Source: Xanthomonas sp. AM6 (lineage in GTDB: Bacteria; Pseudomonadota; Gammaproteobacteria; Xanthomonadales; Xanthomonadaceae). From it: a stretch of DNA of 64,000 nucleotides. The position numbers were made by a program, and so were the translations under genes. Below, piece by piece: positions 41,457 to 64,000 of the stretch. The DNA is taken from NCBI RefSeq assembly GCF_025665335.1, contig NZ_CP106869.1, forward strand, positions 1,762,501 through 1,826,500. The letters are read 5' to 3'. The notes under the pieces were generated by a model. That model was not told the DNA's origin. It saw only the letters and a list, made by a program, of their open reading frames with translations, and ran no database searches. Within the stretch, counting starts at the first letter, position 1. Every line of letters starts with the position of its first letter.

Positions 41457-42584
41457 ATGTCCGACGTCGTTGACCTCACCTGCGCACTGATCGCCCGCCC
41501 GTCGCTGACCCCGGACGACGCCGGCTGCCAGGACCTGATCGCGCAGCGGCTGGCGCGTGCCGGCTTCGCCATCGAGCGGCTGCGCTTCGGCCAGGTCGAC
41601 AACCTGTGGGCCACGCACGGCAGCGGCGCGCCGGTGCTGGCGCTGCTCGGCCATACCGACGTGGTGCCGCCGGGGCCGCGCGAGGCCTGGAGCAGCGATC
41701 CGTTCGCGCCGCAGATCCGCGACGGCGTGCTGTACGGGCGCGGCGCGGCCGACATGAAGAGCGGGGTGGCCGCGTTCGTGGTCGCCGCCGAGCAGTTCGT
41801 CGCCGCGCACCCGGACCACCCCGGCACGCTGGCGCTGCTGCTGACCTCCGACGAGGAGGGCGACGCGCTGGACGGCGTGCGCAGGGTCGCCGAGACCTTC
41901 CGCGCGCGCGGCGAGCGCATCGACTGGTGCATCACCGGCGAGCCTTCCTCCAGCGAGCGGCTCGGCGACCTGCTGCGCGTCGGCCGCCGCGGCAGCCTGT
42001 CCGCCACGCTCGCGGTCAAGGGCGTGCAGGGCCACGTCGCCTATCCGCACAAGGCGCGCAATCCGATCCACCTGGCCGCGCCGGCGCTGGCCGAACTGGC
42101 CGCGCGGCAATGGGACGAGGGCTACGAGAGCTTCCCGCCGACCAGCCTGCAGATCTCCAACCTGCACGCCGGCACCGGCGCCAGCAACGTGATCCCCGGC
42201 GAGCTGCAGGCGGCCTTCAACCTGCGCTACAACCCGCACTGGGACGCACCGCGGCTGGAGGCGGAGATCGCCGCGCTGCTCGACCGCCACGGCCTGGACT
42301 ACACGCTGCGCTGGCACCGCAGCGGCGAGCCGTTCTACACCCCGGAAGGGCGCCTGCGCAGCGTCGCGCGCGAGGTGCTGGGCGCGTTCGCCGGCGCGCC
42401 GCCGGAAGAGAGCACCGGCGGCGGCACGTCCGATGCGCGCTTCATCGCGCCGCTGGGCGCGCAGTGCATCGAGGTCGGCCCGGTCAACGCCAGCATCCAC
42501 CAGGTGGACGAGCACGTGCGCGTCGCCGACCTGGAGGCGCTGCCGGCGCTGTACCTGCGCCTGGTCGAACGGTTGCTGGCGTAA
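41457..42584 (+). CDS. dapE: Succinyl-diaminopimelate desuccinylase
   Basis: DapE removes succinate from N-succinyl-diaminopimelate, giving LL-DAP. The 375-aa product (E. coli 375) has the M20 metallopeptidase signatures [14 protein letters not shown] (His and Asp metal ligands), [30 protein letters not shown] with the bridging Glu, and [14 protein letters not shown]. The dimerisation domain starts near [27 protein letters not shown], and the late [24 protein letters not shown] completes the site. It works in the same pathway as dapD, 3 kb upstream. Confidence 0.97.
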
Positions 42585-42587
42585 CAG

Positions 42588-42616
42588 TTGCGCCCGCCGG
42601 CCGGGCGGGTTACGTT
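42588..42616 (+). promoter_or_regulatory. Candidate promoter of the asnB leader
   Basis: TTGCGC (42588-42593), a 17-bp spacer and TACGTT (42611-42616) resemble a sigma-70 promoter and start immediately after the dapE stop. The -10 box ends 6 bp before the ATG of the leader peptide, so transcription would start at or next to that ATG (leaderless). The same TTGCGC -35 with a 17-bp spacer is seen at rpsB. Confidence 0.45.
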
Positions 42617-42622
42617 CGCCGC

Positions 42623-42718
42623 ATGACCTCGTCCTCCGCCCTCCGCCCGATCCACGCCAACGGCCGCAATCATGCGCTGGCGAATAATCGTGCGCGGCCG
42701 ATGCGGGTCTGCGACTAG
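42623..42718 (+). CDS. Asparagine-containing leader peptide (31 aa) of the asnB attenuator
   Basis: ATG 42623 opens a 31-codon frame ending at TAG 42716-42718. Its middle reads HANGRNHALANN, with Asn codons at 42659 (AAC), 42668 (AAT) and the tandem 42683 and 42686 (AAT AAT). Four Asn in 31, three of them with the AT-rich AAT codon that neighbouring genes avoid, is far above chance. There is no Shine-Dalgarno sequence, but a -10-like box 6 bp upstream would give a leaderless message. Its position before asnB, with the RNA pairings listed under the attenuator, marks it as a control peptide, not a functional protein. Confidence 0.6.
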   Translation: MTSSSALRPIHANGRNHALANNRARPMRVCD

Positions 42719-42782
42719 GCGCTACCGGAAACACCACGCCCAGCCACCAGAAAACCCGCATCGGCCGATGCGGGTTTTTTTA
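42661..42782 (+). promoter_or_regulatory. Transcription attenuator of asnB (1:2, 2:3, 3:4 pairings)
   Basis: Four segments are visible. Segment 1 (42661-42667, CGGCCGC) pairs with the 5' part of segment 2 (42694-42700, GCGGCCG). Segment 2 (42695-42708, CGGCCGATGCGGGT) is a perfect 14-bp complement of segment 3 (42754-42767, ACCCGCATCGGCCG). Segment 3 also pairs with segment 4 (42765-42778, CCGATGCGGGTTTT) to form an intrinsic terminator with seven U's (42775-42781). A ribosome halted at the Asn codons near 42668 would mask segment 1 and free segment 2 for the 2:3 antiterminator; one reaching the stop at 42716 would cover segment 2 and allow termination. This is the classical attenuator logic. 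Confidence 0.7.
42751..42781 (+). terminator. Intrinsic terminator 92 bp before asnB
   Basis: This is a perfect palindrome of two 14-nt arms (AAAACCCGCATCGG and its complement) directly followed by a T-run ending at 42781. It is one of the strongest terminators in the window and lies after dapE but before asnB, so asnB transcription from upstream requires read-through. Confidence 0.9.
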
Positions 42783-42872
42783 TGCCTGCGCGTGGATGGA
42801 TGAATCCACAGGAGCCCGCCTTCCATGGCGGACGACTCAACTACAACCAACCCCCACGACCAGGAGCTTTTC

Positions 42873-44567
42873 ATGTGTTCGATCTTCGGCATCTTCGGCC
42901 TGCAACCGGGCGACGACCTGCAGGCGCTGCGCCGGCAGTCGCTGGACTGCTCGCAGCGGCAGCGCCACCGCGGCCCGGACTGGAGCGGCGTGTATGCCGA
43001 CGACGGCGCGATCCTGGTGCATGAGCGCCTGGCCATCGTCGATCCGGCCGGCGGCTCGCAACCGTTGCTGTCCGAAGACGGCCAGCTGGCGCTGGCGGTC
43101 AACGGCGAGATCTACAACCACCGCGAACTGAAGAAGCAGCTGGCCCAGCCCTACGCCTTCCAGACCGGCTCGGACTGCGAGGTGATCAACGCGCTGTACC
43201 GCGAGGAGCAACCGGCCGCGCTGCTCAACCGGCTCAACGGCATCTTCGCCTTCGCGCTGTGGGACAAGGCCGCCGGGCGCGCGCTGATCGCGCGCGATCC
43301 GATGGGGGTGTGCCCGCTGTACTGGGGCCACGACCAGCAGGGTCGGCTGCGCGTGGCCTCGGAGATGAAGTCGCTGGCCGACAGCTGCGCCGACGTGGCC
43401 CAGTTCCCGCCCGGCCACTACTACGACAGCGCCAGCGGCGAGCTGGTGCGGTACTACCGCAAGCCCTGGCGCGACTACGACGCGGTGCAGGGCGTGGAGG
43501 TGAGCAAGCAGGAGCTGCGCGAGGCCTTCGAGCGCGCGGTGCACCGCCAGCTGATGACCGACGTGCCGTACGGCGTGCTGCTGTCCGGTGGGCTGGATTC
43601 GTCGCTGGTCGCGGCGGTGGCGGCGCGCTTCGCGCGCAAGCGCATCGAGGACAACGACGAGGCCGAGGCCTGGTGGCCGCGCCTGCACTCGTTCGCGATC
43701 GGCCTGAAGGGCTCGCCGGACCTGGCCGCCGCGGCGATCGCCGCCGAGTCGCTGGGCACCGTGCACCACGGCTTCGAGTACACCTTCGAGGAAGGCCTGG
43801 ATGCGCTGCCGGAAGTGATCCGGCACATCGAGACCTACGACGTGACCACCATCCGCGCATCCACGCCGATGTTCCTGCTGGCGCGGCGGATCAAGGCGAT
43901 GGGGGTGAAGATGGTGCTGTCGGGCGAGGGCAGCGACGAGATCTTCGGCGGCTACCTGTACTTCCACAAGGCGCCGAACGCGCGCGAGTTCCACGAGGAG
44001 CTGATCCGCAAGCTCGACGCGCTGTACAACTACGACTGCCTGCGCGCCAACAAGTCGATGATGGCCTGGGGCGTGGAGCCGCGCGTGCCGTTCCTGGACG
44101 TGGAATTCCTGGACGTGGCGATGCGCATGGACGCGCAGCACAAGATGATCGACAGGACCAGCGACGGTGCGGTGCGCATGGAGAAAGGCGTGCTGCGCGC
44201 GGCGTTCGAGGGCTATCTGCCCGAGTCGATCCTGTGGCGGCAGAAGGAGCAGTTCAGCGACGGCGTCGGCTACGGCTGGATCGACGGACTGAAGGCGCAT
44301 GCCGAGGCCCAGGTCAGCGACCGCGAACTGGCCGCGGCCGACAAGCGCTTCCCGGTCAACCCGCCGCAGACCAAGGAAGGCTACTACTACCGCACGCTGT
44401 TCGAGCGCACGTTCCCCACCCCGGCGGCGGCCGAGACCGTGCCCGGCGGCAAGTCGATCGCCTGTTCCTCGCCGGCGGCGATCGCCTGGGACGCGAGCTT
44501 CGCGACGATGGCCGATCCGTCCGGGCGCGCGGTGGCCGGCGTGCACGCGCAGGCCTTGGCCTCGTGA
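42873..44567 (+). CDS. asnB: Asparagine synthetase B (glutamine-hydrolysing)
   Basis: AsnB makes Asn from Asp, ATP and glutamine. The 564-aa product (E. coli AsnB 554) starts MCSIFGIFGL with the nucleophilic Cys right after Met. It has RQRHRGPDWSGVY, LAVNGEIYNHRELKK, GSDCEVINALY, the synthetase PPi-loop GVLLSGGLDSSLVAAVAA and VLSGEGSDEIFGGYLYFHKAPN. The C-terminal part LRANKSMMAWGVEPRVPFLD follows the E. coli-type AsnB. CAGGAG lies 5 bp before ATG 42873. Upstream, a leader peptide with Asn codons and a terminator suggest attenuation by charged tRNA-Asn. Confidence 0.97.
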   Translation: MCSIFGIFGLQPGDDLQALRRQSLDCSQRQRHRGPDWSGVYADDGAILVHERLAIVDPAGGSQPLLSEDGQLALAVNGEIYNHRELKKQLAQPYAFQTGSDCEVINALYREEQPAALLNRLNGIFAFALWDKAAGRALIARDPMGVCPLYWGHDQQGRLRVASEMKSLADSCADVAQFPPGHYYDSASGELVRYYRKPWRDYDAVQGVEVSKQELREAFERAVHRQLMTDVPYGVLLSGGLDSSLVAAVAARFARKRIEDNDEAEAWWPRLHSFAIGLKGSPDLAAAAIAAESLGTVHHGFEYTFEEGLDALPEVIRHIETYDVTTIRASTPMFLLARRIKAMGVKMVLSGEGSDEIFGGYLYFHKAPNAREFHEELIRKLDALYNYDCLRANKSMMAWGVEPRVPFLDVEFLDVAMRMDAQHKMIDRTSDGAVRMEKGVLRAAFEGYLPESILWRQKEQFSDGVGYGWIDGLKAHAEAQVSDRELAAADKRFPVNPPQTKEGYYYRTLFERTFPTPAAAETVPGGKSIACSSPAAIAWDASFATMADPSGRAVAGVHAQALAS

Positions 44568-63427: not shown

Positions 63428-63514
63428 TGGTGCCCAGGAGAGGACTCGAACCTCCACGAAGTTGCCCCCGCTAGCACCTGAAGCTAGTGCGTCTACCAAT
63501 TCCGCCACCTGGGC
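63428..63514 (-). tRNA. tRNA-Leu (anticodon CAG)
   Basis: The minus strand reads GCCCAGGTGGCGGAATTGGT at the 5' end, forms a 7-bp acceptor stem with CCTGGGC, and has an anticodon loop TTCAGGT between CTAGC and GCTAG, giving anticodon CAG. The long variable arm and the GTTCGAGTCC T-loop are typical of tRNA-Leu. CCA is encoded (63428-63430). Length is 87 nt. CUG is the dominant Leu codon in this GC-rich genome, in line with multiple copies. Confidence 0.95.
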
Positions 63515-63922: not shown

Positions 63923-64000
63923 TGGTGCCCAGGAGAGGACTCGAACCTCCACGAAGTTGCCCCCGCTAGCACCTGAAGCTAGTGCGTCTACCAATTCCGC
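63923..64000 (-). tRNA. tRNA-Leu (anticodon CAG), second copy, cut by window end
   Basis: The visible 78 nt are identical to the corresponding part of the copy at 63428-63514, including CCA and anticodon. The last nine bases of the 5' acceptor end lie beyond the window. The downstream flanks and terminators of the two copies are also nearly the same, so the two arose by duplication of a unit including the 3' flank. Confidence 0.93.

Follow-up and report, generated by a model that had tools for sequence, protein, structure and literature searches.

Directly upstream of asnB in Xanthomonas sp. AM6 lies a short open reading frame (ORF) with Asn codons, followed by an intrinsic terminator, and this arrangement raises the question of whether asnB is controlled by the amino acid that its product makes. 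The initial annotation of the locus had proposed a trp-type attenuator that responds to Asn. We followed up this proposal in a 64,000-nucleotide stretch of DNA (G000:C1:1762501-1826500, hereafter the window), which lies within a genome of 4.9 Mb, and in the genomes of relatives. The promoter, the 31-codon ORF, its four Asn codons, the complementarities and the terminator were all found in the sequence where they had been placed, and the next gene is indeed an asparagine synthetase, with a score of 877.8 bits against NCBIfam NF006949 (cut-off 499, E 2.9e-264). The features of the locus are as follows.

Upstream neighbourhood of the leader: arsC-like gene (Pfam ArsC)
Ends at 42584, upstream of the leader: Peptidase_M20 gene (Pfam), which we, like the initial annotation, take to be dapE
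42588-42593 and 42611-42616, + strand: promoter read from the sequence, -35 TTGCGC and -10 TACGTT with a 17-nt spacer
42623, + strand: predicted transcription start, the A of the leader ATG, from the promoter spacing
42623-42718, + strand: leader peptide ORF, 31 codons with four Asn, stop codon TAG at 42716-42718, MTSSSALRPIHANGRNHALANNRARPMRVCD
42659-42661, + strand: Asn control codon 1, AAC
42668-42670, + strand: Asn control codon 2, AAT
42683-42688, + strand: Asn control codons 3 and 4, AAT AAT
42661-42667, + strand: segment 1, the exact reverse complement of 42694-42700 (7 bp)
42695-42708, + strand: segment 2, the 5' strand of the antiterminator, within the ORF (codons R-P-M-R and part of V)
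42754-42767, + strand: segment 3, the 3' strand of the antiterminator and also the terminator 5' arm with loop
About 42750-42781, + strand: intrinsic terminator (segments 3:4) with T run
42862-42866, + strand: Shine-Dalgarno sequence of asnB, AGGAG, read from the sequence
42873-44567, + strand: asnB, glutamine-hydrolysing asparagine synthase B (NCBIfam NF006949)
Downstream of asnB, opposite strand: GGDEF gene

When the 150 nt upstream of the window terminator were dinucleotide-shuffled 5000 times, an ORF with four Asn codons arose in 8 cases. Both strands of the window were also scanned for terminators, with six matches at four distinct places, of which only one, the asnB leader, has such an ORF upstream. 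A simple consensus scan of the window called no promoter and did not return the leader terminator; both promoter hexamers agree with the sigma-70 consensus at three of six positions each, which is below the requirement of that scan.

Taken together, these elements in all likelihood form a ribosome-mediated transcription attenuator of asnB alone, with charged tRNA-Asn as its signal, and the leader very probably acts as a switch that permits AsnB synthesis only when asparagine is scarce. In the proposed mechanism, transcription would begin at the A of the leader ATG or beside it, and a ribosome would load at the 5' end of the RNA and race RNA polymerase along the leader. When Asn-tRNA is plentiful, the ribosome would reach the stop codon at 42716 and cover segment 2, which would allow segment 3 to pair with segment 4 and end transcription at the T run near 42781. 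When Asn-tRNA is short, the ribosome would stall on one of the Asn codons and leave segment 2 free to pair with segment 3 (42695-42708 is the exact 14-nt reverse complement of 42754-42767) before segment 4 is made, so that the polymerase would continue into asnB. Of these steps, the position of the transcription start, the stalling of the ribosome and the response of read-through to asparagine are inferred.

Asn-rich leaders and terminators before asnB in relatives

To follow the leader through the order, we used a search with the AsnB of the window (E up to 1e-100), which gave a match in 306 of 397 genomes, and read the upstream regions of the best 150 of these 306 matches. A fixed rule asked for a terminator together with an ORF of 12-75 codons that ends between 80 nt before and 6 nt after the terminator start. 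By this rule, an Asn-rich ORF (3-10 Asn) and a terminator precede asnB in 148 of the best 150 genomes and in 36 of 36 genera. The leaders contain 6.6 Asn on average, and 135 of the 150 genomes have five or more, compared to a mean of 0.53 in shuffled controls (20 for each of the 148 genomes); the four Asn of the window leader are at the low end of the range. The two genomes that the rule missed have a leader by eye. In L190 it begins with GTG and the terminator fails the rule, and in L183 it lies farther out, with its ATG 542 nt before asnB. Thus, the conservation of Asn codons that the initial annotation had proposed as a check in relatives was borne out, and the pattern that it had named as speaking against an attenuator, a terminator that is kept while the ORF or its Asn codons are lost, occurred in none of the best 150 genomes.

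Named AsnB loci gave a similar picture. Among 45 such loci in or near the order, which are partly the same genomes as the 150, an ORF with at least three Asn codons is present in 42 and the full rule applies to 40. The genera with a leader include Xanthomonas, Stenotrophomonas, Pseudoxanthomonas, Luteimonas, Lysobacter, Thermomonas, Arenimonas, Rhodanobacter, Dyella, Frateuria and Fulvimonas. The reverse pattern, in which an Asn ORF has no terminator by the rule, occurs at two of the 45 loci, the Lysobacter MAGs L026 and L028, whose ORFs have 8-9 Asn codons. Three loci labelled Holophagales, Rhodococcus and Deltaproteobacteria (L015, L023 and L042) have neither the ORF nor the terminator; their AsnB proteins are 75-82% identical to that of the window, and they are perhaps mislabelled bins or transfers. 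At L183 and L184 (both of genus g15) and at L225 the distance from the terminator start to asnB is about 260-390 nt, more than in most genomes, and sequence seems to have been gained there between attenuator and gene.

The named loci also bear on a simpler account, in which the stem-loop is the terminator of the upstream dapE gene and the short ORF is noise. In the window dapE ends at 42584, and 25 of 30 close relatives also have it upstream, which would fit this account. However, dapE was found upstream, within the stretch examined, at only 8 of 42 named loci, and an Asn ORF is present at 31 of the 34 others, so a spacer between dapE and asnB, as named in the initial annotation, is not the general setting. 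Moreover, a conserved promoter lies between dapE and the stem-loop, and the frame and the Asn content of the ORF are under selection. We regard the dapE terminator account as vanishingly improbable.

Selection on the ORF is evident from its codons. In 147 leaders, AAT and AAC triplets are distributed over the three frames as 946:6:6, a count in which the choice of the ORF by its Asn content favours frame 0; the shuffled controls underwent a similar choice. From this bias we infer that the leader ORF is probably translated. An NN pair, which in the window is formed by control codons 3 and 4, precedes R.R in 69 leaders, and it is encoded by AATAAT in 45, AACAAT in 14, AATAAC in five and AACAAC in five of them. 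Since both Asn codons are used at the same conserved pair, it is the amino acid that is kept and not the nucleotide. AAT accounts for 467 of 981 Asn codons in 148 leaders, compared to 36 of 315 when the asnB genes at 30 loci are counted. Indel periodicity between related pairs is weak, with gaps of a multiple of three making up 213 of 472 in the ORFs versus 48 of 343 in the spacer. The leader peptide had no match among the NCBIfam models.

The composition of the peptide also speaks to the idea that attenuation senses a general slow-down of translation, or the supply of Arg or Ala, and not Asn. Leaders are rich in Ala and Arg, which together make up 33.8% of their residues, as this idea would have it. 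Relative to the expectation from shuffled bases, however, Ala is enriched only 1.8-fold and Arg 1.2-fold (Met, second to Asn, 2.3-fold) as against 9.6-fold for Asn, and the controlled gene makes Asn. Sensing of Arg, Ala or general slow-down is therefore extremely improbable, and we continue with Asn as the amino acid that is sensed.

Beyond the best 150, we read 29 of the remaining 156 AsnB genomes of the order and found a leader in four: G024, G014 and G002, which belong to a third family and have 5-6 Asn codons, and G110, with three. Among the 25 genomes in which asnB has no Asn leader, 18 are in families f4, f5, f7, f9 and f10, and the other seven belong to the two leader families and have a distant AsnB (62-67% identical). 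Those seven, L241, L242, L243, L245, L247, L250 and L251, suggest that asnB was replaced there together with its attenuator. At L256, no leader was found within 325 nt upstream. In total, an Asn leader is present in 154 of the 179 genomes of the order that were read, and, as the 25 others have a more distant AsnB, absence of the leader goes with divergence of the enzyme.

Outside the order, the same rule applied to 35 asnB loci among L044-L080 gave no Asn codon at 21, one or two at seven, three at four, four at three and five at none. The three loci with four are L066, L067 and L069, and only L069 looks like a leader by eye. This locus lies in a Rubrivirga MAG, from well beyond the order. About 45-175 nt ahead of its asnB, an ORF containing NLTNANRN precedes a strong terminator, and the locus is possibly an independent Asn attenuator.

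Pairing of the leader RNA

To model the stalled state, we placed a ribosome on the first Asn codon of the densest cluster and folded the remaining RNA. At least 6 bp then formed between the end of the ORF and the 5' arm or loop of the terminator in 143 of 148 genomes (in the other five there were fewer than six such pairs), and the strand on the ORF side spanned, at the median, positions 23 to 10 nt ahead of the ORF end. For the window, placing the ribosome at Asn codon 13, 16, 21 or 22 gave the antiterminator, and with a ribosome at the stop codon the remaining RNA gave the terminator fold, at -21.0 kcal/mol. The pairing of a leader with its own terminator was equalled or beaten by shuffled ORF ends in 5.4% of cases and by terminators swapped in from the other family in 16.6% of 4440 cases; the values were 27% for swaps from other genera and 41% for swaps from another genus of the same family. 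The longest perfect Watson-Crick run between the ORF and the 5' arm was tried as a measure and dropped, with swaps from other genera being as good or better in 46%; it is a poor measure because it leaves out loop pairs and G-U pairs, and folding, duplex energies and counts of pairs took its place.

Covariation was assessed in alignment A2, built from 39 leaders of the window's family. No genus contributed more than 2-3 of them, and stretches of more than 140 nt were excluded. The antiterminator has changes on both sides at 7 of 14 pairs, a number reached by 51 of 500 shuffles, and in 35 cells, reached by none of 500. Its cells are paired in 75.3% versus 22-42% when slid. The pair 38:93 is GC in 34 sequences and AU in five, and the pair 41:90 is UA in 17, CG in 15, UG in two and unpaired in five; most of the pairs on the loop side fail in 14 to 23 of the 39 sequences. 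For the terminator, changes on both sides occur at 5 of 9 pairs (reached by 10 of 500 shuffles) and in 51 cells (reached by none of 500), and 97.2% of cells are paired versus 26-46% when slid. The number of further pair types was not above that of the shuffles, 369 of 500 of which reached the count for the antiterminator and 500 of 500 that for the terminator. The clearest coupling is between a leader codon and the terminator arm. The arm sequence CCCGC occurs with the leader codon CGG (Arg) in 15 genomes and CCTGC with CAG (Gln) in six, with no exception among the 21, and L190 and L183, which are outside that count, fit the same pattern by eye. Together with the conservation described above, these compensatory changes, which the initial annotation had named as a check, support its interpretation of the leader as a trp-type Asn attenuator.

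The pause or protector stem that had been postulated between segments 1 and 2 stood up less well. The 7-bp stem is present in the window, where the fold with it is at -20.3 kcal/mol, but across 147 genomes shuffled upstream RNA was at least as strong in 40.5% of trials. Furthermore, the whole window leader folds into the antiterminator when no ribosome is present, a point against the proposed mechanism, which does not account for an off-state in the absence of translation; the off-state may depend on a translating ribosome that lies over segment 2, or the order of folding and other structures may matter. In a three-segment reading of the leader, with translation beginning at the very 5' nucleotide of the RNA, the race would need no conserved pause or protector hairpin.

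Start of the leader and metabolic setting

The upstream sequences point to such a start. In the window, the -10 hexamer ends 6 nt before the leader ATG at 42623. Across the set, the leader ATG is preceded by TTGC and a TAnnnT-like hexamer, mostly 17 or 18 nt apart, and CC directly before the ATG is common. The promoter score of 146 of 147 leaders is at or above the 99th percentile of 687 control ATGs from the same regions, a score that is partly circular, as the promoter rule was drawn from these same upstream sequences, and for which leaders could take the best of their in-frame ATGs. A strict promoter rule selected 108 of 147 leaders, in 26 of 36 genera, compared to 2 of the 687 controls, and in all 108 the hexamer ends 5-7 nt before the ATG, which with the usual promoter spacing would put the transcription start at the A of the leader ATG. 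A Shine-Dalgarno-like motif is found before 16 of 147 leaders (131 lack one) versus 136 of 150 asnB starts. The leader is thus probably leaderless, with a promoter 5-7 nt before its ATG and mostly no Shine-Dalgarno sequence.

Leaderless Cys-rich upstream ORFs in mycobacteria are reported to act on translation, and by analogy stalling in the Asn ORF could act on the translation of asnB or on the stability of its mRNA and not on transcription termination. Such an effect is very improbable here, as the terminator and its T run are conserved and covary and asnB has, in the 136 genomes mentioned, a Shine-Dalgarno-like motif of its own. We therefore retain transcription attenuation as the preferred reading.

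The genome of the window has a single AsnB at E up to 1e-100. Among the matches listed, from which the genome's own record and similar ones may be missing, the named AsnB proteins with the highest identities are from a Stenotrophomonas sp. (90% identical), Pseudoxanthomonas kalamensis (89%) and two Xanthomonas species (87%). A search of the genome found AsnRS and neither GatB nor AsnA. As AsnRS is present and GatB absent, tRNA-Asn should be charged with free asparagine, and this is a setting in which sensing the charging of tRNA-Asn ahead of asnB makes sense. Of 40 genomes of the order, some carrying the leader and some lacking it, all 40 have AsnRS and none has GatB; since the same combination also occurs in genomes that lack the leader, neither gene discriminates between the two groups. 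In the accessible part of a study of Xanthomonas citri in planta, asnB and the thr, his and ile/leu genes are described as lowered by DSF quorum sensing (PMC6337780), a pattern that is compatible with shared amino-acid control and is no test of it.

Relation to known attenuators and spread over the class

The leader shares several traits with attenuators of the trp/his/leu type: an ORF with codons for the regulatory amino acid, whose translation we consider probable, an intrinsic terminator before the gene, and an antiterminator that excludes the terminator and has its 5' strand where a ribosome finishing the ORF would cover it. As in the trp, his, leu, thr, ilv and phe attenuators, a short ORF is rich in codons for the product amino acid, the antiterminator overlaps the terminator, and a biosynthetic gene lies downstream. 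Unlike these, the amino acid is Asn, a single gene, asnB, is controlled, the leader is probably leaderless, and no 1:2 stem is conserved beyond chance. No Rfam leader family reached its gathering score in the window; Leu_leader (RF00512) scored 20.9 against a gathering score of 50 and Thr_leader (RF00506) 21.2 against 55. T-box leaders sense the charging of their cognate tRNA and control a terminator and need no translated ORF; they would resemble the Asn leader in the first two respects and differ from it in that the Asn leader would use a translated ORF. Rfam gave no T-box match to the window.

To our knowledge, older comparative surveys of proteobacterial attenuators cover his, thr, leu, ilv, trp and phe and not asn. 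Among the open-access papers listed, titles and the openings of abstracts revealed no Asn-codon leader and no asnB attenuator, a scope that takes in few of the subscription surveys. The word asparagine does not occur in the accessible part of PMC2965389, nor asparagine and asn in that of PMC1262725, nor asparagine, asn and asnB in that of PMC2659441. A start of the RNA at the ATG of the leader ORF is reported, in the accessible part of PMC7298713, for trpL of Sinorhizobium meliloti; the Asn leader, in which such a start is predicted, shares this trait and differs in that trpL responds to Trp and belongs to the Alphaproteobacteria. As far as we have seen, the mechanism is of a known kind, and both Asn as the amino acid and a probable leaderless start in Gammaproteobacteria are new.

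AsnB of the window kind (E up to 1e-120) was found in 6 of 370 genomes sampled over the class. A covariance model of the leader found one strong site in the window genome (E 7.3e-20; the next at 0.68) and, under stricter filters in 143 genomes of the class, only the window genome and one other of the same family. With so few matches to either AsnB or the leader, the attenuator looks like one old invention tied to one asnB lineage. We hold only tentatively, with slightly less than even confidence, the fuller proposal that a leaderless three-segment Asn attenuator with no need of a pause or protector hairpin became fixed in the ancestor shared by the Xanthomonas and Rhodanobacter families and is the first Asn-specific leader-peptide attenuator.

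If the attenuator functions as proposed, it would extend sensing through ribosomes stalled on a leader peptide to asparagine. The group concerned is large, with Xanthomonas, Stenotrophomonas, Lysobacter and Rhodanobacter among its members, and the leader would be a natural reporter of tRNA-Asn charging. It would also account for the control of asnB in bacteria whose tRNA-Asn is charged from free asparagine, with AsnRS and no GatB. The probable leaderless start would offer a clean gammaproteobacterial case for studying the timing of leaderless initiation relative to transcription.

Far downstream of this locus, the window also contains a tRNA-Leu (CAG) on the - strand at 63428-63514, called by ARAGORN, and Rfam marks a second tRNA at 63926-64000, which is cut by the window end.
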